DNA of 64,000 nucleotides from Psychrobacter sp. FDAARGOS_221 (lineage in GTDB: Bacteria; Pseudomonadota; Gammaproteobacteria; Pseudomonadales; Moraxellaceae): positions 496,001 through 560,000 of the forward strand of contig NZ_NWFK02000001.1 of the NCBI RefSeq assembly GCF_002313155.2, in the 5' to 3' direction. The notes under the pieces are model-generated. The model saw nothing but the letters and a program-made list of their open reading frames with translations, had not been told where the DNA came from and ran no database searches. The translations under genes were made by a program, and so were the position numbers. This document shows positions 14,758 through 27,092 of the stretch, piece after piece; the stretch's first letter is position 1, and the number at the start of each line of letters is the position of its first letter.

Positions 14758-14987
14758 GGAAATCTCTTATTTAATTAATCACTTAGATTTTGTCGAATGC
14801 TATTTTATATGTTTGATTGATATCAGTTTTAATTTTACTGAGTGCGCGATAAGTTAGGCGCATTTATAGTGGGTAATGAATTATTGTGCTTAGTTTACCA
14901 TAACTACCCCAAAGCTTGATAAATCACCCTATTTAGAGGCCAAAAATAAAAAAAATGACTTTTTTTCAAAATAATTGCAAAAAAGGT

Positions 14988-15015
14988 TTGACAGATGTTT
15001 TTTTATCTATATAAT
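14988..15015 (+). promoter_or_regulatory. tRNA operon promoter
   Basis: TTGACA (14988-14993) and TATAAT (15010-15015), both perfect consensus, with 16 bases between. It lies 57 bases ahead of tRNA-Val, preceded by an A/T-tract that could act as an UP element. This is the strongest-looking promoter in the window. Confidence 0.9.
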
Positions 15016-15072
15016 ACGCACCTACATTCAGAGGACATAGCGAAGAAGCTTAGCTCTAAATGTAAGCAAATC

Positions 15073-15148
15073 GGGTGATTAGCTCAGTTGGTAGAGCGTC
15101 TGCCTTACACGCAGAATGTCGGCAGTTCGAGCCTGTCATCACCCACCA
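15073..15148 (+). tRNA. tRNA-Val (anticodon TAC)
   Basis: A 76-base cloverleaf with acceptor GGGTGAT pairing ATCACCC, D-arm AGCTCAGTTGGTAGAGC, anticodon loop CTTACAC giving TAC, T-loop GTTCGAG, and an encoded CCA end. Confidence 0.97.
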
Positions 15149-15204
15149 CTCTTTATAGAGTATCACTTCTTTAGAAAGTGGCTAAACATTCTAAAGCGAC
15201 CTAA

Positions 15205-15281
15205 GCAGCGGTAGTTCAGTTGGTTAGAATACCGGCCTGTCACGCCGGGGGTCGCGGGTTCGAGTCCCGTCCGCTGCGCCA
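15205..15281 (+). tRNA. tRNA-Asp (anticodon GTC)
   Basis: A 77-base cloverleaf with acceptor GCAGCGG pairing CCGCTGC, anticodon loop CTGTCAC giving GTC, T-arm CGGGTTCGAGTCCCG, and an encoded CCA end. It is co-transcribed with tRNA-Val 56 bases upstream. The accessory region begins right after it, which fits use as an island attachment site. Confidence 0.97.
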
Positions 15282-15315
15282 TATTTTAAAACTTATGTTT
15301 TATCAAAAGTTTCAG

Positions 15316-15346
15316 CCCTAGATATTAAGTTATCTAGGGTTTTTTT
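15316..15346 (+). terminator. Terminator of the tRNA operon
   Basis: CCCTAGATA pairs perfectly with TATCTAGGG over a 6-base loop, followed by seven T, 34 bases after tRNA-Asp. Confidence 0.93.
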
Positions 15347-15514
15347 GTGGGTGATGATTTTAGCTATCCTCTTTCAAAGCCTTTATTAACAAGACTTTTA
15401 CAGAAAGTAAAAGTCACATCTTAAAATATCAAAATTAATCTTAATGTCAGTTACTGAAGGTTTGAACAATTAAAATTTATTAAGTTCTTCTAATAATGCA
15501 TTAAGGAAAACTAC

Positions 15515-15560
15515 GGTGACCAAACCCTCGGTGACCAAATGGTGACCATTTTGTGACTAA
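15515..15560. repeat. GGTGACCA direct repeats beside tRNA-Asp
   Basis: GGTGACCAAA at 15515 and 15530, GGTGACCA at 15541, and a degenerate TTGTGACTAA at 15551. They sit between the tRNA terminator and the 3' end of the Avs-like gene. Clustered short direct repeats next to a tRNA 3' end resemble integrase arm-type sites or island-junction remnants. No integrase gene is present. Apart from these repeats and the terminator, 15282-15615 holds nothing I can identify. Confidence 0.4.
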
Positions 15561-15615
15561 AATTGAAAAAGATGGGATTAATCAGTATAAAAATTTATCC
15601 AAACAATTAGTCATA

Positions 15616-18600
15616 CTAATTTAATCTAATACTTCTAAATAACTCACTCTGCTGTAATGAAGCGCTACGTCTATCACCTTGATCGATTAACCAGTCTATG
15701 ATTCTTAATAGCTTCTGTCCCGTTGCCAAATCTAAAGGATTGTCCCTTTCAGCGAAGAATTGTACCAAATCTGCTATACGGGCATATAAAGTGCTACCTT
15801 GCCAACCTATGAGCTTTGGTTTAGATATGACGGTTAAGAGTTGATCTGCAAAAATATCAGCAGGATAGTGATCTTTTGCGTACTCACATAGTTTGATAAA
15901 GTTTTGCATAACCGTTCCTATCCAGCCTGCCTCACGAACAAGCTTATCAATAATTGGTAGTATTAAGTGAATATCTGACCAGTCGCTATTTGCAAAACGT
16001 TTAGCACCTTTAAATGTGTCAATAGACGTAAACATTAACGACTCAAGTGTATTTTGTTTATATAAATCAAATCTATTAAGCTTATATCCATTTTGGTCAA
16101 ACTCATCTTCTTGTAGGAATCGTTCTAAACAACGCTCTAAGATTATAATGACATCATTTGGCACTTCAGCTTCATCATAAAGATGACAACTTAAATAGCT
16201 TATTAAAGGCTGTATAAGCTCCCAACCTTCTTCAGTTTGTAAAGCTAATATAGGTTGTACAAACCTATCAAAAGTCTCACTGTAAGGTAATTTGCCACAG
16301 AATATGCTTATAGTGTTACCTAAAGCATCCATAAACTCGTAAAGGCTATTGCGATCGCCTCTAAAATCATATTCCTCTGCCCACGACGGTTCGATTAATT
16401 CAATAGTCCAAGCAAGTAAACTGTCAATAAAACTCAGAAACTCGGTATTAAATTCAGATTCTATAAGTTTCTTGGTAGGTAGCGTCTTCAAAACCTTTGC
16501 TAGAAAATTAGTATCCCATTGTTCCTCAGACCTTTCCCACTTTATAGCAACTAAAGATTTATCAAAATAGTAATTAGCAGAAGGTCTGTATTTTTCCTTT
16601 TCTAATTCTATCCAAGGACTGATGCACCTTGGAAGTTTCAAATATTGTTCCTCTGACTCATAATATTTATCAATAGTGGCTAGTAGGTTGAGCAACTTTT
16701 CATTTACTTTCTTTCTATCCTCTGAATTAAAAATTGCATATTTAAAATGGTTATAACAGAGTGAAATAGCAAGAAATATTGCAGAATAAGATAGTTTAGC
16801 GTCTATATCATATAATGAAGCACAACAGTTTAAAGCTAATAGGGATAGCTCATTAACTGGACTTACAATCAGACCTAGCAAATGATTTTTTGCATAATCC
16901 GCATCTACGTCATTCCTTATTTCAGCTACTAATGCATTACTAGCAAATAATTTTGGATGGAACATTAACTGGGCATCTGCTGTGCTACATTCATAAGAGT
17001 TAAAAGGTAAACTCATTACTTTATCAATAATTTCTCGAGCCCATTTTAAATCTGTATCTGTCAAACCTTCTCTAAAACACAGCGCCATAGTTGCTACAGC
17101 ACTAATAGCATTCTGCTTCATACGCCTGTAAATAGCCTCATACTCCCACCCACCACAACTATCTTCAAACAGTTGCGAATCGTCATGTTCTTTTATATAA
17201 CCTAGGGCAGATGGAATAGAATATCCTTCTACAATGGCACCTTGCAATAAGGATTTCTGAGACCAATAGGCTATATTATTAAAAATTAAGAAGTCTGAAC
17301 TTTTCTTCTGCTCTGCTCTATTCTTGCTACTGTTTAAAGAAGGACTGTGATGCGAAATAGTTACTATATTTTTATTTTCAGTAGGTTGCACTGAATAGGT
17401 AGTTTCATCGGCATACTCAGCATAAAATCCAGCTCGTTCTAACAGTTTCTCAGTGACTTCTGTACTGCCAAATTGATCTTCAAAGTCATATGGTAGAGAG
17501 TTTTTGAATTCATTCAGCCTTACTTTTATTTCATCACTAAATTCCGAGAACATAAATGCGGTGAGTAAGCTTGATAAACAGGATTGGTAACCCGCTTTAG
17601 TATACATTTCCTTAATCTCACCTATGTCCTTTTTATGAGTAAGATGTTTACCTGCGTAGGATATCAAAGGTGCTGATGAACCACCTAGGTCTTGAGTATA
17701 ACGATAATAATCTAAATCAAGCACTTTTTGATTCGTTACTAAAGGAAGTGTGCTTTTGCTAATGTGTTGTCGTTCCAGAGCAAGTACAGACACAATACTT
17801 AAAATAGCTACTGATTCGTGACCTTGTGTAATTCTTTGGATTAAAGCTTCTAAATCTACACCTGCCTCTAATTGCTCAAAACACCATTTCTCTAGGGTCA
17901 TAAAAGCTGATGACAATATATCGTTTGCCCAGTATGCACGCGACCAAATATATTCTTTCTCATTACCCCAAAAAGTTTGAGCCCCCCAAGGAAAGTTTAA
18001 CTCAATTGGAATAGGTGTCATTTTTTCATCAGATAATTGATGAAGCTGTTTCCAAGCTGCTATTGCATGGTTTGAGAGTTTTCTGATTAACTTTAAACCG
18101 ATATCAGGCGCATATTTTAATAGTGAGTAAAAAGGTTCTTTAATTGGTGAGGAAGGATAGAAACCAATAAAGTCACTATTAAGAGCCAGACTCTTCCAGT
18201 CGCTATCAGTAACAGATTGGTTTGGAAATGGACTAAGAAATAAGGCCCTACGTTGAAGCATCTCTTTTTGTTTATCAGTTAGCTCATCATGTGGAATATT
18301 ATTTAATTTCGTCCAATACTCTTGAGATCGTTGTTGCTCTTCACATTCTCGCGCGTACTTATCCAAAGGTAATTCACATAAAGCCTTTTTTAAGCAGAAC
18401 TCTGCAATTAGATTAGAATGCTTTGTGGTTATAAGGCTAGATAATTGAATAATATGTTTAAACAATTCATTGGGTATCTCATCCAGGCTAAGTAGCCTAG
18501 TCAAATAGGTTTCAAAGAAAGTTGGATATGAACTGGCTGATAATATGATAAGGTTACGTAAAGCGTCTTTGAACTCTCGTATATCATCAATTAATTGCCA

Positions 18601-20967
18601 GTTATGGGTACTAGGATAATCTTTTAATTCTTCTAATTCAGAGAGCCAGCTTAAAGCTAGCTCTAATATCTTAGATGCAAATGCATTAATAACTTGTGGA
18701 GGATTTGAAGAATTTTCGAAATTGATGGTGAAATTTTGAAAAACAGTAAAGACATCGATAACTTTTGGGTATATATGTTCTGGCAACGAAGAAATATCTT
18801 CTAATATGAAACTAATAACTTGAAACCATAAGGTTAAGTCAGCGGGCCACGCAAGAGAGGTAGCAATCTTCATATCTTTAGAAGTAGCAAGTATCAATGG
18901 GTTTGGCTGAGTCTTCTCTGCTTGAAACCAGACCAAAAGCTTCTCATAGAGCGCGTAATCATTTTCAGCAAGCTTACCTCTAAATTGCTCATTGTATTTA
19001 GCTATGTTTGGATAACTAATTGCACCTAATAGCCATGCCCGCATCCACTGTGAACGGAGTGTTTTAAATTTTGGTTGCTCTATTTCTGTAGACCATTCAT
19101 CGTCTTTAAGCTTTTGCTGAGATAATAACTCCACAACTCTAGCTATAGCAGGAGGTTGACCAAACGCTTCAATTTGATCAAGCCATTCATCCTCGGCTTC
19201 AAATAAACTGTACAACAATGACCACTCAAAGAAGATATCATGAGCGAAATCTACTGTCGATTTTCTGTCGTTAATTCTAATGACACCATCACTGTTTAAT
19301 TCATCTAGTTCCAAGTTACTAGCAAGCGACCTTCTTTTGACAGATTGAGTAAGTTTTTTCACTTTATGCTCGGCTAAATCCAGCAAAGTGTTTTGTCTAT
19401 CTATAATTTTCTGACTTGTGGCACTGTACCCGCCACGTTTCCACCATTCGTGAATTAAATCCAGCTCAGTTTCCGGTGAAGTATTATCTGATAGACTTAG
19501 TGTAGATAGAATTTTTGCAAAGAATGGTGTTCTCACAACATGCTTTACATTTTCAGAAGGACTAAAAAGTAGCCTTCTTAAATTCGGAAATTGCTTTGCA
19601 AGAATATTAGCTTCATTATCATCTAATTTATCAACCGTCACACTACCAATCGAAGCTTGCTTTAGAACAGAGCCTAGCCACGTTCTCAATGGCTCTAACC
19701 CTGTCTCACGTAAAGTAACGACTATCTTCCACTCTGTTAATAATGGATCGTTTAGAATTAGTGTTATTAGCTCTTCAATAATTGGTCTATGCTCACTATC
19801 AACACGATCAATACCGTCAATGAACAAAATAGGCGTGCCTGCCGATTCAATTTCAACGAGTAGCTCTTTTAAGCTATGTGTTGTCGATATCCCTGAACCT
19901 TGAGCATATTGAACCCAGTTTTTACCAATAAGTTGATCAGATTTAAAAAACAGAACAAATGAGTTAGCTAAATATTCCTCAATTACCTGACGTAGCAAGG
20001 CGGACTTACCCGTGCCAGGCATACCTGTTATCTGAATAAATCGTTTATTATCAATCTCATCTGTAAATTTAGATTTTAAATTAGTCCTATCTAGTATAAA
20101 CCCATCAATATCACTTTGAATTTGATGGAGATAAGTATTTGTAAGCTCTTTTATGCTTAAAATTTGTTCCTCAAACGTTCTACCTTCTTTAAGTTGAACA
20201 ACTTTACTTAATTCATGGACTAACCGAACTCTATCAAACTGTCCTGCTTTTCCAGCAGATTCTCTTCCTAACTCATAAATATGAGACCAAACCAATACGG
20301 GTGATATATGACTGTTTATCGGTAGTTGTGATCGAATGTGTTTTTCTGCAACATGAGTGCCAACTTCGCCATCATGTAGAAAGTCAAATCGAACAATGAT
20401 GAAATGTTTTAGAAAATTGTGTTTTTGAGTAGGTGTTAATGGCGTTGAAGAGAACTCATCTAGTAGCTGATAAATGGTATTTCTAATTGATTGAATATTT
20501 GCACCAGCATTACCATTAGAGCTGAACCGCTGTTCAAAATGCTCAAAATCATTACTTTCAATGGCTATTTGACAAAGAAAGCCTAAATCACGAAATTTAG
20601 CTGAGGATATCTCACTAACCGCTACTCCATACTTATCTAAACCCTCATTAAAAGCAGAATCGTGATAACTGGTTAAGCTATCACGTATAACATCTCTAAA
20701 GTTTTTATTAGTGTCAGCAGAACTAATTGTTAGTTCACGTTTGATTTGCAAACTGGTCGTTCCAATTCGATCTGATGCGTCCCTCCATTTGACAATAACA
20801 TCATCTAAAGGGTAGCCAAAGTCTCTTTGCTGACTAGCCACATTTACCACTATACCATCGCATCCAGGCGCACTTGATTCAGCTAATAACGCAGTTAAAT
20901 AGTAAGCCATAACATGACCTTCATAGGTGAAACCATCACCACCTGCTAGTTCTGGGGACTGTGACAT
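15616..20967 (-). CDS. Avs-like STAND NTPase with N-terminal PD-(D/E)xK nuclease domain
   Basis: A 1783-residue single-gene protein. Residues 1-210 match the Cap4/DUF4297 nuclease pattern: GxxYxGHVMAYYLTALL, then PLDDVIVKW (Asp55/Asp56) and SLQIKRE (Gln74-x-Lys76) as the PD-(D/E)xK core. A P-loop NTPase follows with Walker A GMPGTGKS (315-322), Walker B ILFIDGID (380-387) and KIVVTLRE (414-421, likely sensor Arg). A winged-helix-like part lies near 540-620. The remaining about 1100 residues are helical and repeat-like with no recognised domain. This is the order found in Avs (AVAST) antiviral NTPases, where the C-terminal solenoid senses a phage protein and the nuclease then cuts DNA. Exact Avs type is not assignable by eye. 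It is adjacent to tRNA-Asp, with AT-rich codon use. Confidence 0.82.
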   Translation of the reverse strand: MSQSPELAGGDGFTYEGHVMAYYLTALLAESSAPGCDGIVVNVASQQRDFGYPLDDVIVKWRDASDRIGTTSLQIKRELTISSADTNKNFRDVIRDSLTSYHDSAFNEGLDKYGVAVSEISSAKFRDLGFLCQIAIESNDFEHFEQRFSSNGNAGANIQSIRNTIYQLLDEFSSTPLTPTQKHNFLKHFIIVRFDFLHDGEVGTHVAEKHIRSQLPINSHISPVLVWSHIYELGRESAGKAGQFDRVRLVHELSKVVQLKEGRTFEEQILSIKELTNTYLHQIQSDIDGFILDRTNLKSKFTDEIDNKRFIQITGMPGTGKSALLRQVIEEYLANSFVLFFKSDQLIGKNWVQYAQGSGISTTHSLKELLVEIESAGTPILFIDGIDRVDSEHRPIIEELITLILNDPLLTEWKIVVTLRETGLEPLRTWLGSVLKQASIGSVTVDKLDDNEANILAKQFPNLRRLLFSPSENVKHVVRTPFFAKILSTLSLSDNTSPETELDLIHEWWKRGGYSATSQKIIDRQNTLLDLAEHKVKKLTQSVKRRSLASNLELDELNSDGVIRINDRKSTVDFAHDIFFEWSLLYSLFEAEDEWLDQIEAFGQPPAIARVVELLSQQKLKDDEWSTEIEQPKFKTLRSQWMRAWLLGAISYPNIAKYNEQFRGKLAENDYALYEKLLVWFQAEKTQPNPLILATSKDMKIATSLAWPADLTLWFQVISFILEDISSLPEHIYPKVIDVFTVFQNFTINFENSSNPPQVINAFASKILELALSWLSELEELKDYPSTHNWQLIDDIREFKDALRNLIILSASSYPTFFETYLTRLLSLDEIPNELFKHIIQLSSLITTKHSNLIAEFCLKKALCELPLDKYARECEEQQRSQEYWTKLNNIPHDELTDKQKEMLQRRALFLSPFPNQSVTDSDWKSLALNSDFIGFYPSSPIKEPFYSLLKYAPDIGLKLIRKLSNHAIAAWKQLHQLSDEKMTPIPIELNFPWGAQTFWGNEKEYIWSRAYWANDILSSAFMTLEKWCFEQLEAGVDLEALIQRITQGHESVAILSIVSVLALERQHISKSTLPLVTNQKVLDLDYYRYTQDLGGSSAPLISYAGKHLTHKKDIGEIKEMYTKAGYQSCLSSLLTAFMFSEFSDEIKVRLNEFKNSLPYDFEDQFGSTEVTEKLLERAGFYAEYADETTYSVQPTENKNIVTISHHSPSLNSSKNRAEQKKSSDFLIFNNIAYWSQKSLLQGAIVEGYSIPSALGYIKEHDDSQLFEDSCGGWEYEAIYRRMKQNAISAVATMALCFREGLTDTDLKWAREIIDKVMSLPFNSYECSTADAQLMFHPKLFASNALVAEIRNDVDADYAKNHLLGLIVSPVNELSLLALNCCASLYDIDAKLSYSAIFLAISLCYNHFKYAIFNSEDRKKVNEKLLNLLATIDKYYESEEQYLKLPRCISPWIELEKEKYRPSANYYFDKSLVAIKWERSEEQWDTNFLAKVLKTLPTKKLIESEFNTEFLSFIDSLLAWTIELIEPSWAEEYDFRGDRNSLYEFMDALGNTISIFCGKLPYSETFDRFVQPILALQTEEGWELIQPLISYLSCHLYDEAEVPNDVIIILERCLERFLQEDEFDQNGYKLNRFDLYKQNTLESLMFTSIDTFKGAKRFANSDWSDIHLILPIIDKLVREAGWIGTVMQNFIKLCEYAKDHYPADIFADQLLTVISKPKLIGWQGSTLYARIADLVQFFAERDNPLDLATGQKLLRIIDWLIDQGDRRSASLQQSELFRSIRLN

Positions 20968-21418
20968 AAAGATTCCCTTCTATTATCAATAAAGATTTAT
21001 AAACTCAAAATAGGTTTATCAATTAGCTTTACGTGATCACCTGTTTCAATCTAAATTAGATCAGGATTTACTATTTGCACGTATTTTAACACTCAGGTAG
21101 CATATAATTAGTCTCGACTTGAGCCAAGCCGTCGAATGGCCAAATCTATTTGATTCTCATTGCTATTATCAAATCATAAATTTATTAGAATCGAATTTCC
21201 TTAATATCAAAGGCATCAAAACTCTATTCTTATAACTATAGTAATTATAATAATATAAAATTTCTTCCCTTAAATTATAATTAAACCCTTTATCTAATGC
21301 TTATATCCTAGTTTTGGCAAAAAGCTTTTTATTAGCTGGCATGGTTGATATTGGTATTTAAATCTACTTATTCGTTGTTTAATATTGAACAGCGATAATA
21401 CGAAATAATGCAACTAAA
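20968..21418. other. AT-rich gap upstream of the Avs-like gene
   Basis: A 451-base spacer, very AT-rich, between the Avs-like gene start and the GFA gene stop, both on the minus strand. It must hold the promoter of the large gene, but I see no hexamer pair good enough to name. No coding sequence, RNA or repeat is visible. Confidence 0.5.
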
Positions 21419-21856
21419 TTAATCACGACCCACCGAGAATATGGCAATATCATCATTTAAAGTACACCAATTTGCTTTAAACTTAGTATAAATCTGGGCG
21501 TTTATTGCTATAGGAAGCTCCTCATCAAATATCGCAATGGCTAATTCAATATCCTCAAATGGCGCACTCTTAACTCGAAACCCAATACTAGAACCACAGT
21601 TTGAGCAAAAAGTTCTAGTAGTACCATTTTCTGCAACATAATCTTTTAATTTTTTACGCCCTGCTAGCCACTTTAAACCTTTCACGGGAACCAACGTACC
21701 AAACGCCGCGCCATGGAACTTGCGACACATTGAGCAATGACAATTGGCAACGTTATCACTAAAGCCTGTCACACTAAATTGAACCTGATTGCAAAGACAT
21801 GAGCCTTGGTAAGTTTTCTGATTTTTTCGCTTGTTTTGACTATCATAATTTAGCAA
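21419..21856 (-). CDS. GFA/CENP-V fold zinc protein
   Basis: A 145-residue protein of the glutathione-dependent formaldehyde-activating family. Zinc-binding cysteines are in the family order: GSCLCNQVQF (about residue 19-28), NCHCSMCRKFHGAAFGT (about 38-54) and FCSNCGSSIGFR (about 83-94). Most relatives are uncharacterised despite the family name, so substrate is unknown. It overlaps the end of the upstream Gate-domain gene by 14 bases, implying translational coupling. The first 13 residues are hydrophilic and not conserved. Confidence 0.88.
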   Translation of the reverse strand: MLNYDSQNKRKNQKTYQGSCLCNQVQFSVTGFSDNVANCHCSMCRKFHGAAFGTLVPVKGLKWLAGRKKLKDYVAENGTTRTFCSNCGSSIGFRVKSAPFEDIELAIAIFDEELPIAINAQIYTKFKANWCTLNDDIAIFSVGRD

Positions 21857-22787
21857 CCTGAACTTTATCTTTATAGAAAAAACGGTCAGTGGTTTTAGCC
21901 AATAGGATTAATAGCACAACAGCGAATGCCACCCTACCAACCAAAATCACCCAAATATCCGCGCCGAGTAATAGGATAAGCAATGTATCCTCAATCAATG
22001 AGTGCATAATGGACAAACAGCTTAACGACATAAACAAATCTCTTTTACTATAAGACACTTCCCTCACTTTTTGAATAATAAGCCCACCACCGTATGATAA
22101 TCCTAGTAACAAACCTATAGTCGTCATTGGCGCAAGTTCGGGATTTTGACCTGTCAGACGTAAAAACGGCTCTAATCTGCGCGATAACCATCTGATAAAC
22201 CCAATACGCTCTAGCACATCCATGACAAAGTTTAGTGCCGTCAGGATGGCAAAAATCATAACTATAAGCTCGGCAATGCTTTGTAACCAATGTAGCCAAC
22301 TATCATCAGTTGAGGCTTCTGGTAACCAAGTGATGGTCACAGGGTCTTGCATTATATCGAAGAACTTAAATATAAAATTAGCACCAATACCATAGACAAT
22401 CGCGGAAAATAGCCGTAATGCTCCTGTGAATAATGCACTTGCCCCTGCAACTTTTACTACGGCTTGCTCAACAGGTATTGCATGGGCAAATAGCATCGCT
22501 GAGCCAAGAATACTCAGTTGTCCAACAGTGAGTCCATCTGAGGGTAATAAGGTCGCTAGTACGCCAATACCGCCATAGATGTTGGTTAATATCGTCACTG
22601 CCCAAATAAGCCCTGCCTCCCCTGGCAAGCCCATAGCAGACAACGGTATCGCTAAGATGCGACTTAACCAATCAGCAACGCCCGTCAATACCATAATCCG
22701 TGAAATAAACATCATCGGTACAATAATCTTTAATAAAAACCATGTGGTAAGGAGTGACTTTTTCAGTAAGGCTAGGATGTACGGCAT
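21843..22787 (-). CDS. Nucleoside-recognition (Gate) domain membrane protein
   Basis: A 314-residue inner-membrane protein with about eight hydrophobic segments in two similar halves. Each half resembles the Gate domain of nucleoside-transporter and spore-maturation-like proteins, for example ILTNIYGGIGVLATL in the first half and LLLGLSYGGGLIIQKV in the second. Substrate is unknown. It ends inside the GFA gene start, so the two probably form one transcript. It is divergent, by 78 bases, from the IS-interrupted HEPN-like gene. Confidence 0.8.
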   Translation of the reverse strand: MPYILALLKKSLLTTWFLLKIIVPMMFISRIMVLTGVADWLSRILAIPLSAMGLPGEAGLIWAVTILTNIYGGIGVLATLLPSDGLTVGQLSILGSAMLFAHAIPVEQAVVKVAGASALFTGALRLFSAIVYGIGANFIFKFFDIMQDPVTITWLPEASTDDSWLHWLQSIAELIVMIFAILTALNFVMDVLERIGFIRWLSRRLEPFLRLTGQNPELAPMTTIGLLLGLSYGGGLIIQKVREVSYSKRDLFMSLSCLSIMHSLIEDTLLILLLGADIWVILVGRVAFAVVLLILLAKTTDRFFYKDKVQVAKL

Positions 22788-22865
22788 TTGGTTTGACCTT
22801 TGTTGTAAACTTAGTTAAGAAAATATAGCTTTCCAATAATTCAATTCACTATCTAGGAGACGCAT

Positions 22866-23402
22866 TTGGAAAATAATAATTCAGTAAATGAGATTCAGGC
22901 TGTACAGGCTTGTTTAGATGATGCAGTTGCTTTTAGGGATATGATGCTAGAATTACAAAGTCTTCCAACTCATACGTCTAATTTAATTAGTCCTGGTTAT
23001 CTCTCAGAATCAGCGATGTTTATTGTTGAAAGTTATGAGTGCTTAAAGAAAGTTACACCAGATATAGCAAATATATGTGACCCTACTTTAGTCAATGAAT
23101 TAAGAATTATGAGACATCGTACTAAATTACTTGAATCTCAAAAAGACATAAAAAAGGTTATTAACATCCTATCAGAAATTGAGATTGAGCAGGTTAAGCA
23201 GTATAGAGGAGCCTATACAGGGTTTTTTGCTCCTATATTGGATTTAATGAGATCAGATATAGGTTTAACTAAATGTAACAAACATATAATCACAACAACG
23301 CATTCGACAATGTATTTTCTATCTCTTGATGTTATCAACAACCCTAAACACCTCATAGATTTATCGACTAAAATAGGTGAATATGTCGAAACGTTGGTGT
23401 AA
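22866..23402 (+). pseudogene. 5' part of IS-interrupted HEPN-motif gene
   Basis: The TTG start at 22866 is supported by AGGAGA five bases upstream. The reading frame runs 177 codons to the IS insertion at 23398 and stops two codons later in IS sequence. The N-terminal part is helical and acidic with no recognised domain. Removing the IS (23398-24585) and one copy of the TTGG target duplication joins this frame exactly to 24590-25191, restoring a 377-residue protein. I do not recognise the family of this half. Confidence 0.85.
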
Positions 23403-23468
23403 CTATCCCCTAAAATAACACAGCTCAAACGTAGAATTTCTTATAAAATACCCATAAGGAGTTTTAAT

Positions 23469-23729
23469 ATGAGCAAACGAATGACTGAGACCCAAATAGT
23501 ATCCATTTTAAAAGAAGCAGAAGCAGGAATACCTGCTAAAGAGCTGTGCCGTAAGTACGGAATTGCTAATTCGACTTTCTATAAATGGCGTTCCAAGTAT
23601 GGAGGCATGGAAGCCTCTGATGTTAAGCGACTAAAAGAGCTTGAAGAAGAAAACCGTAGGCTTAAACAGATGTATGCTGATTTAAGCCTCAAAGCGCAAA
23701 TGCAGGAAGATATCATAAAAAAGCTATAG
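23469..23729 (+). CDS. IS3-family transposase OrfA
   Basis: An 86-residue protein: helix-turn-helix (MTETQIVSILKEAEAG, then ELCRKYGIANSTFYKWR) followed by a leucine-zipper coiled coil rich in E/L/K. This is the DNA-binding, multimerising half of an IS3 transposase. AAGGAG precedes the ATG. The slippery run AAAAAAG at 23717-23723, just before the stop, should give a -1 frameshift into OrfB. Confidence 0.95.
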   Translation: MSKRMTETQIVSILKEAEAGIPAKELCRKYGIANSTFYKWRSKYGGMEASDVKRLKELEEENRRLKQMYADLSLKAQMQEDIIKKL

Positions 23730-23764
23730 CGCCTGCTTGTGAGCGCAAAGTCTGGGCTCAAGAA

Positions 23765-24544
23765 TTGCAGGCGCAGTATGGTGTCAGTATTGCATCGAGC
23801 TGTCAGGTGGTCTGTATGAGTCGAACCGCTTATTACTATAAGCCTAAGCTATCTGATGATAGTGAGATTATTGATGTCTTAAATGAACTAACAGATAAGC
23901 ACAATCGTTGGGGTTTCCCAAAGTGTTTTAAGCGTATACGCAAGCTTGGCTATTCATGGAATCATAAACGAGTACACCGTGTTTATAAAGCTTTAAACTT
24001 AAACCTACGCCGTAAGTCTAAAAGACGGCTACCAACACGTAACCCCCAGCCGTTAAGTGTGCCAAACGCATTGGGTCATACTTGGTCTATGGACTTTATG
24101 AGCGATAAGCTGCACAATAATATTCGCTTTCGAACCTTTAATGTGATTGATGATTACAACCGCGAAATACTCGGCATTGATATTGGTACCAGCATTCCCT
24201 CACTCCGAGTGATTCGCTACCTTGACCAGTTAGCCGAGTGGCATGGTTATCCTAAGCAAATTCGTGTGGATAATGGTAGTGAGTTCACCTCTAAAGTGTT
24301 TACTGATTGGGCAACGGCTCACGGTATCTATATTGACTATATTGAGCCTGGCTGTCCTTATCAGAATGCTTATATTGAACGGTTTAATCGTAGTTACCGC
24401 AATGAGGTTTTGGATTGTTATTTATTCAATGATTTAAATGAAGTCAGTCAACTGACTGAGGAGTGGATCACGGTTTATAACACCGAAAGACCCCATGATT
24501 CACTTAATGATATGACACCTGCCCAGTATAGACAGGTGGCTTAA
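23765..24544 (+). CDS. IS3-family transposase OrfB (DDE integrase core)
   Basis: The catalytic half of the transposase. After an HTH_21-like segment (HNRWGFPKCFKRIRKLGYS), the rve core shows the DDE residues: Asp in WSMDFMS, Asp in RVDNGSEFTS, and Glu in NAYIERFNRSY. The frame is open back to the A6G slip at 23717-23723, so the active form is expected to be an OrfAB fusion. The TTG at 23765 is only the first plausible separate start. Confidence 0.93.
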   Translation: MQAQYGVSIASSCQVVCMSRTAYYYKPKLSDDSEIIDVLNELTDKHNRWGFPKCFKRIRKLGYSWNHKRVHRVYKALNLNLRRKSKRRLPTRNPQPLSVPNALGHTWSMDFMSDKLHNNIRFRTFNVIDDYNREILGIDIGTSIPSLRVIRYLDQLAEWHGYPKQIRVDNGSEFTSKVFTDWATAHGIYIDYIEPGCPYQNAYIERFNRSYRNEVLDCYLFNDLNEVSQLTEEWITVYNTERPHDSLNDMTPAQYRQVA

Positions 24545-24585
24545 TTATTCTACGATGATGTTGTGTTAAGAATGGGGTATTTACA

Positions 24586-25904: not shown

Positions 25905-25945
25905 TGTAAATACCCCATTCTTAACACAACATCATCGTAGAATAA

Positions 25946-26725
25946 TTAAGCCACCTGTCTATACTGGGCAGGTGTCATATCATTAAGTGAATCATGGGGT
26001 CTTTCGGTGTTATAAACCGTGATCCACTCCTCAGTCAGTTGACTGACTTCATTTAAATCATTGAATAAATAACAATCCAAAACCTCATTGCGGTAACTAC
26101 GATTAAACCGTTCAATATAAGCATTCTGATAAGGACAGCCAGGCTCAATATAGTCAATATAGATACCGTGAGCCGTTGCCCAATCAGTAAACACTTTAGA
26201 GGTGAACTCACTACCATTATCCACACGAATTTGCTTAGGATAACCATGCCACTCGGCTAACTGGTCAAGGTAGCGAATCACTCGGAGTGAGGGAATGCTG
26301 GTACCAATATCAATGCCGAGTATTTCGCGGTTGTAATCATCAATCACATTAAAGGTTCGAAAGCGAATATTATTGTGCAGCTTATCGCTCATAAAGTCCA
26401 TAGACCAAGTATGACCCAATGCGTTTGGCACACTTAACGGCTGGGGGTTACGTGTTGGTAGCCGTCTTTTAGACTTACGGCGTAGGTTTAAGTTTAAAGC
26501 TTTATAAACACGGTGTACTCGTTTATGATTCCATGAATAGCCAAGCTTGCGTATACGCTTAAAACACTTTGGGAAACCCCAACGATTGTGCTTATCTGTT
26601 AGTTCATTTAAGACATCAATAATCTCACTATCATCAGATAGCTTAGGCTTATAGTAATAAGCGGTTCGACTCATACAGACCACCTGACAGCTCGATGCAA
26701 TACTGACACCATACTGCGCCTGCAA
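25946..26725 (-). CDS. IS3-family transposase OrfB, right copy
   Basis: Same 259-residue DDE integrase-core product as at 23765-24544, with WSMDFMS, RVDNGSEF and AYIERF intact. It is expected to be made as an OrfAB fusion through the A6G slip. Confidence 0.93.
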   Translation of the reverse strand: MQAQYGVSIASSCQVVCMSRTAYYYKPKLSDDSEIIDVLNELTDKHNRWGFPKCFKRIRKLGYSWNHKRVHRVYKALNLNLRRKSKRRLPTRNPQPLSVPNALGHTWSMDFMSDKLHNNIRFRTFNVIDDYNREILGIDIGTSIPSLRVIRYLDQLAEWHGYPKQIRVDNGSEFTSKVFTDWATAHGIYIDYIEPGCPYQNAYIERFNRSYRNEVLDCYLFNDLNEVSQLTEEWITVYNTERPHDSLNDMTPAQYRQVA

Positions 26726-26760
26726 TTCTTGAGCCCAGACTTTGCGCTCACAAGCAGGCG

Positions 26761-27021
26761 CTATAGCTTTTTTATGATATCTTCCTGCATTTGCGCTTTG
26801 AGGCTTAAATCAGCATACATCTGTTTAAGCCTACGGTTTTCTTCTTCAAGCTCTTTTAGTCGCTTAACATCAGAGGCTTCCATGCCTCCATACTTGGAAC
26901 GCCATTTATAGAAAGTCGAATTAGCAATTCCGTACTTACGGCACAGCTCTTTAGCAGGTATTCCTGCTTCTGCTTCTTTTAAAATGGATACTATTTGGGT
27001 CTCAGTCATTCGTTTGCTCAT
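26761..27021 (-). CDS. IS3-family transposase OrfA, right copy
   Basis: Same 86-residue helix-turn-helix plus coiled-coil product as at 23469-23729, with the slippery run conserved before its stop. Confidence 0.95.
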   Translation of the reverse strand: MSKRMTETQIVSILKEAEAGIPAKELCRKYGIANSTFYKWRSKYGGMEASDVKRLKELEEENRRLKQMYADLSLKAQMQEDIIKKL

Positions 27022-27092
27022 ATTAAAACTCCTTATGGGTATTTTATAAGAAATTCTACGTTTGAGCTGTGTTATTTTAGGGGATAGTTACA

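Follow-up and report, generated by a model that had tools for sequence, protein, structure and literature searches.

Among the AVAST (Avs) receptors, Avs2 and Avs3 carry a Cap4-type nuclease effector, and the effector of Avs4 is Mrr-like. Avs4 itself (AVAST type 4; PDB 8DGF, NCBIfam NF041815) combines an NTPase with a complete C-terminal sensor fold. According to PMC12931631, the nucleases of Avs1 to Avs4 cause altruistic death upon sensing terminase, portal or Ksap1. Here we consider a window of 64,000 nucleotides from the genome of Psychrobacter sp. FDAARGOS_221 (one contig, 3.16 Mb), in which an intact open reading frame (ORF) of 1783 codons runs on the minus strand from 20967 to 15616 and encodes a STAND receptor composed of a nuclease, an NTPase and a sensor. 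We read it as an Avs4-like receptor that would, as a single protein, bring about abortive infection, its effector being a Cap4-type nuclease and its most likely trigger the phage portal; we assign this reading a probability of around 60 %. The computed basis consists of the domain identities, the intact motifs, the Avs4-type sensor fold and the exchange of effectors on a conserved NTPase and sensor; nucleotide switching, oligomerisation, DNA cleavage and triggering by the portal would follow by analogy with solved Avs relatives and NLRs. An earlier interpretation from the letters alone (the sequence-only reading), which saw an Avs relative, is supported, and an antiviral function is inferred.

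The NTPase and winged-helix region (residues 260–600; 19168..20190, minus strand, as are all features of the gene) contains a Walker A motif, GMPGTGKS (residues 315–322; 20002..20025), and a Walker B motif with two acidic residues, ILFIDGID (residues 380–387; 19807..19830), and is predicted to adopt a NACHT plus winged-helix fold. In the ranking of structural matches to its model, Avs4 and NACHT/NLR proteins come ahead of proteasomal AAA+ chains (19.5 vs 11.9), i.e. the NTPase does not group with non-STAND AAA proteins, and the proposal of a STAND NTPase holds. The helical sensor (residues 600–1783; 15619..19170), modelled separately, takes on the Avs4 C-terminal sensor fold over its full length in structural alignment to the portal-bound 8DGF, so that a C-terminus unrelated to Avs solenoids can be set aside. 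Avs3 (PDB 8DGC) and Avs2 match the window protein far more weakly than Avs4 does; both were absent among the 50 best Foldseek-ranked rows for the sensor model, which does not exclude them. The kinship proposed by the sequence-only reading therefore stands with Avs4 as the relative, while the likeness to Avs2 and Avs3 is confined to the nuclease.

The predicted N-terminal fold (residues 1–258; 20194..20967) is that of a PD-(D/E)xK nuclease, with Cap4, LmuA, a HerA-associated DUF and Hachiman as the nearest chains in structural comparison, and holds the conserved D and QxK of the Cap4/DUF4297 core, in agreement with the Cap4-type nuclease suggested before. The putative metal ligands D55-D56 (20800..20805) and the putative catalytic strand Q74-x-K76 (20740..20748) were each kept in 71 of the 71 aligned rows having this N-terminus. 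Cap4 and DUF4297 share this fold, but Cap4 is fused to SAVED and DUF4297 is partnered with HerA, whereas the nuclease of the window protein is fused to a STAND receptor instead. Two PADLOC models match only in part, i.e. DUF626_VIII over residues 1–215 (E 2.8e-18) and PDC-M54A over residues 11–583 (E 2.3e-10). In the best stretch of the NF041815 match, which starts at model position 159, Avs4 model positions 1–158 find no sequence counterpart, and the N-terminus is nearest to Cap4 by fold; 8dgf aligns structurally from residue 11. A 531-aa protein of a relative (L003:703-2298) matches only residues 4–259, the nuclease part, at 24 % identity, and no Pfam or PADLOC family was found for it.

Of 7,993 candidates scored in the homologue search, 334 were homologous at E≤1e-3, and the ORF is therefore a real gene rather than a chance ORF. 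The ATG stands 6 bases 3' of a Shine–Dalgarno-like GAAGGGA (20974..20980, minus strand), and a plus-strand reading of 15616..20967 was dismissed (168 stops). The sequence-only reading had placed the gene and all four motifs correctly, leaving the strand unsaid. Among the 120 best rows listed, the query included, coverage was 99–100 %, identity 36–100 % and length 1758–1846 aa, the nearest named homologue listed being that of Psychrobacter sp. APC 3426 (73 % identical). A genome scan confirmed 130 stretches, from which 80 loci were kept, and four IMG/VR contigs brought the set to 84; 79 of them, each with a single ORF of >1450 aa, were aligned, and L088, L090, L096, L098 and L107 stayed outside (split genes or contig end). 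As a twin of L105, L104 was dropped from A2, which took 68 of 69 candidates, and from A3, which took 74 of 75. GK[S/T] of Walker A was present in 78/78 rows (L054, which starts after the motif, excluded) and D384/D387 of Walker B in 79/79, while the C-terminal GDRR (residues 1764–1767; 15667..15678) was found in 77/79, the exceptions, L099 and L101, having their 3' part as a separate ORF. HDIFFEW and ELAGG[EDA]GFT, or ELAGG[EDA]GF, served as search patterns in the collection of the loci, so that the conservation of these stretches, including HDIFFEW at residues 576–582 (19222..19242), is partly ascertained.

Further evidence for the Avs4 kinship comes from three genomes of the same bacterial family, which encode a protein of 1693–1694 aa that combines an Avs4 core with a Cap4-like N-terminus (L153:3055-8139, L154:2997-8081, L155:3500-8581); a genome of the same genus as these, G580, also carries a member. 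In the two proteins scanned, the NCBIfam Avs4 model matched from residue 285–287 to 1685–1686 (E 3.3e-188 and 4.1e-195), at 627.8 and 650.7 bits, which is likewise below the cut-off of 1500. Compared as profiles, the window family and these three rows align with Prob 100 and E 4.5e-46 (columns 10–1330 vs 15–1280), i.e. their homology takes in the nuclease, the NTPase and roughly the first two-thirds of the sensor, at 21 % identity between L153 and the window protein, and the three proteins are much nearer to Avs4 than the window protein is. They form a bridge that links the window family to Avs4. Cropped profiles, controlled with reversed templates, gave E 1e-25 for residues 900–1330, E 5.3e-6 (Prob 70) for 1200–1500 and E 0.016 for 600–930 (0.0099 against the full length). 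Because matches in the other crops are weak or missing, sequence support for an Avs4-like sensor comes mainly from residues 900–1330, while the far C-terminus is Avs4-like by predicted fold, with no detectable likeness in sequence.

While the NTPase and sensor are largely kept among the relatives, the N-terminus is not. In a protease type, represented by L035 of P. immobilis and relatives, about 235 other residues precede the kept NTPase and sensor, with H36, D91 and S166 identical in 32/32 rows examined, a trypsin-like context that we take to be that of a protease; the L035 N-terminus reached the cut-off of no Pfam family and had no significant sequence match in the PDB. In both loci in which the upstream gene was read (L035 and L162), a gene of 337–340 aa with a metallo-β-lactamase (MBL) fold overlaps the receptor gene. 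The PADLOC matches of these two MBL genes were LmuA (7.6e-58 and 1.1e-59), RTasMBL (2.9e-42 and 4e-43) and Avs1a (1.1e-33 and 2.2e-36), and that of L162 also matched NCBIfam Avs1a (E 3.5e-42; 144.5 bits, below the cut-off of 420). L035 and L162 have the pair of Avs1, i.e. Avs1a with a protease-STAND protein (N-terminal trypsin-like protease, upstream MBL gene), which the window protein lacks. The layout is also that of the nuclease–protease pair of PMC12799240, where a protease activates a gated nuclease (AVAST, Hachiman, Lamassu, DRT), but the window protein has a nuclease in place of the protease, and its NTPase and sensor are of the Avs4 type. Downstream of the P. immobilis receptor lies a gene (L035:7103-9297) with a motif resemblance to GmrSD/DUF262-type restriction proteins.

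A second replacement, which we read from the sequence as helical, occupies about 190 residues in three loci (L052:9419-9985, L072:9428-9991, L081:1470-2033) and 30 database rows; searches with it reached no Pfam cut-off and returned no significant sequence match in the PDB (L052, L072) or any match in PADLOC (L052). It would be a new effector and might found an effector class of its own. Between P0172 (helical) and P0045 (nuclease), the best pair, identity is 88.7 % across 1526 residues of the NTPase and sensor, while the first 200 residues of P0045 align with P0172 at 0–19 %. On a tree of the NTPase and sensor (122 rows), made by a quick method and flagged by the program for long branches and uneven composition, the protease type takes one change and the helical type four, at least two of them forced by starred branches.

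The MBL gene of genome G609 (L162) precedes a 1721-aa protease-type member of the family, after which come a 1545-aa protein and, on the opposite strand, a gene read as a tyrosine integrase. The two large proteins are 52 % identical over the first 234 residues, other pieces among the matches listed having E >1, and no PADLOC or NCBIfam match was found for the 1545-aa protein, which by our reading of its sequence has a STAND core of its own. This stretch (L162:2723-15386) holds one MBL nuclease gene and a tandem of two STAND-like proteins, both fused to the protease but unrelated in their cores, and because the protease module stands on both behind a single MBL gene, one nuclease may perhaps serve two sensors. 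We consider it an even bet that the family is a plug-and-play receptor, in which a largely kept Avs4-type sensor and NTPase are combined with exchangeable effectors, i.e. a Cap4-type nuclease, a protease that would switch on a separate MBL nuclease or a helical module, and in which the tandem cores of G609 may share one nuclease.

By analogy with the solved relatives, the solenoid (residues 600–1783) would hold the NACHT/STAND NTPase (residues 260–600) monomeric and ADP-bound in the resting cell. Late in infection it would wrap a conserved structural protein of the phage, for which the portal is the likeliest candidate, upon which nucleotide exchange in the NTPase would let the receptor oligomerise; the oligomer would gather the N-terminal nucleases, and phage and host DNA would be cut, leading to cell death before phage release.

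Several observations weigh against an Avs4-type receptor triggered by the portal. The window protein scores 107.1 bits with the Avs4 equivalog NF041815, whose cut-off is 1500, no PADLOC Avs model matches it at E≤1 (PADLOC Avs4 does match the relatives P0045, 6.5e-23, P0172, 1.5e-18, and P0082, 3.3e-24, and gave no match to P0017), and the structural alignment with Avs4 shows 13 % identity. The NTPase and sensor models are two overlapping pieces that leave out their mutual arrangement, and the profile of residues 1325–1783 found no match in the bridge family, reversed controls behaving alike. Nor does the surrounding DNA look like a defence island, 0 of the 14 neighbouring ORFs scanned matching PADLOC, and no conserved partner gene was found across the 84 loci, although the flanks of many are short. 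Finally, a shared solenoid fold is no proof of a shared ligand, since Avs5 responds to another, unrelated jumbo-phage protein (PMC12931631).

The last two points on the sensor, i.e. the far C-terminus and Avs5, speak for the strongest alternative, in which the same receptor drives the same nuclease-dependent abortive infection with a trigger other than the portal, such as the large terminase, another capsid protein or an early phage protein. Divergence within clades favours it as well: the 16 rows of the Psychrobacter nuclease clade have a mean identity per 100 residues of 87–94 % in blocks within residues 1–600, of 60–74 % within residues 1101–1500 (16468..17667) and of 92 % in the last 83 residues, and the minimum again lies between 1101 and 1400 in the three further clades examined (each clade's own reference numbering), the first block of the protease clade being variable too (72 %). 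Ligand contact could be sought in these divergent blocks. With the sensor fold matching the portal-bound structure over its full length, we consider a different trigger, as raised by the sequence-only reading, a tentative rival rather than the leading view.

Carriage of the receptor is patchy. Only 3 of 57 relatives have it, counting the genome itself and one match to the N-terminus only, and 9 of 299 genomes of the same bacterial family carry matches, some distant or partial; G501, of the same genus, has a copy at the same contig coordinates. Phylum labels in the tree include Pseudomonadota, Nitrospirota, Bacillota, Acidobacteriota, Fibrobacterota, Thermodesulfobacteriota, Verrucomicrobiota and Campylobacterota, but the wider spread depends on binning, since every row from outside Pseudomonadota bears a metagenome-bin label except L049 (Propionispira) and L064 (Geomonas). 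No copy was found in 50,697 phage records, and four IMG/VR contigs carry members. Plasmid records match in 36 cases, six of them covering ≥80 % of the query at a single place, and genes read as tyrosine recombinases lie near 11 of the 84 loci, no other neighbour cluster exceeding five. Carriers therefore compete with other elements, and the receptor might guard against plasmids or other mobile elements instead of phages; however, the mobility of carriers says nothing about the target, and the sensor shares its fold with a receptor whose solved structure contains a phage portal, which makes such a guard improbable. A non-defence STAND protein, e.g. a transcription regulator of the MalT kind, is hardly credible given an N-terminal nuclease with invariant catalytic residues and relatives that carry a protease and an MBL nuclease gene instead.

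As the sequence-only reading noted, the gene lies beside a tRNA-Asp (15205..15281, plus strand), 334 bases past its 3' end; a tRNA-Val is found at 15073-15148. Six ftsY-region stretches from relatives were compared with the window, and the tRNA-Asp appears as the edge of a variable site: G330 is syntenic from ftsY across the tRNAs up to window base 15576, which is about 40 bases short of the receptor gene's stop codon, G348 and G023 match up to about 15350–15362, and no match in G007, G022 and G029 extends as far as the tRNAs, with other genes beyond the tRNAs in G330, G023 and G348. Insertion by recombination at the 3' end of tRNA-Asp was rejected, as no direct repeat of ≥14 bases involving the tRNA was found in 14760–22900, and tRNA-Asp words of 14, 15, 16 and 18 bases did not recur on the window plus strand (the strand searched). 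Because no attachment repeat was found, adjacency to a tRNA is in itself no evidence of an integrase-borne island. A downstream bound of the island could not be placed; the G330 gene beside the tRNA had no match in the genome of the window, and the neighbour at 21843–22787 none in 14 relatives, empty answers that prove nothing. G+C content is 36.1 % in the receptor gene and 41.2 % in the whole window, and the lowest 5.35-kb stretch (35.3 %) starts within the gene, at base 16001. Two identical inverted IS3-like insertion sequences (23400–24585 and 25905–27090) enclose about 1.3 kb including an ORF with no Pfam family; the 1186-base stretch has eight identical copies in the genome. At the tRNA site of a relative (L140:1-10827), hemagglutinin-repeat-like and Hint/HNH-like ORFs, read by eye, resemble contact-dependent toxins.

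An Avs4-type receptor family with a Cap4-type nuclease is a new variant of an ordinary kind. The titles and abstract openings searched, a coverage outside which most subscription papers fall, do not name it, and we make no claim of absence. Given the Avs4-type sensor, the trigger lends itself to a direct test, and the natural pairs, with about 1526 residues in common at up to 88.7 % identity and unrelated N-terminal modules, have a near-constant sensor, so that the contribution of the effector can be tested as well. The family is unusually good natural material for a study of effector exchange.
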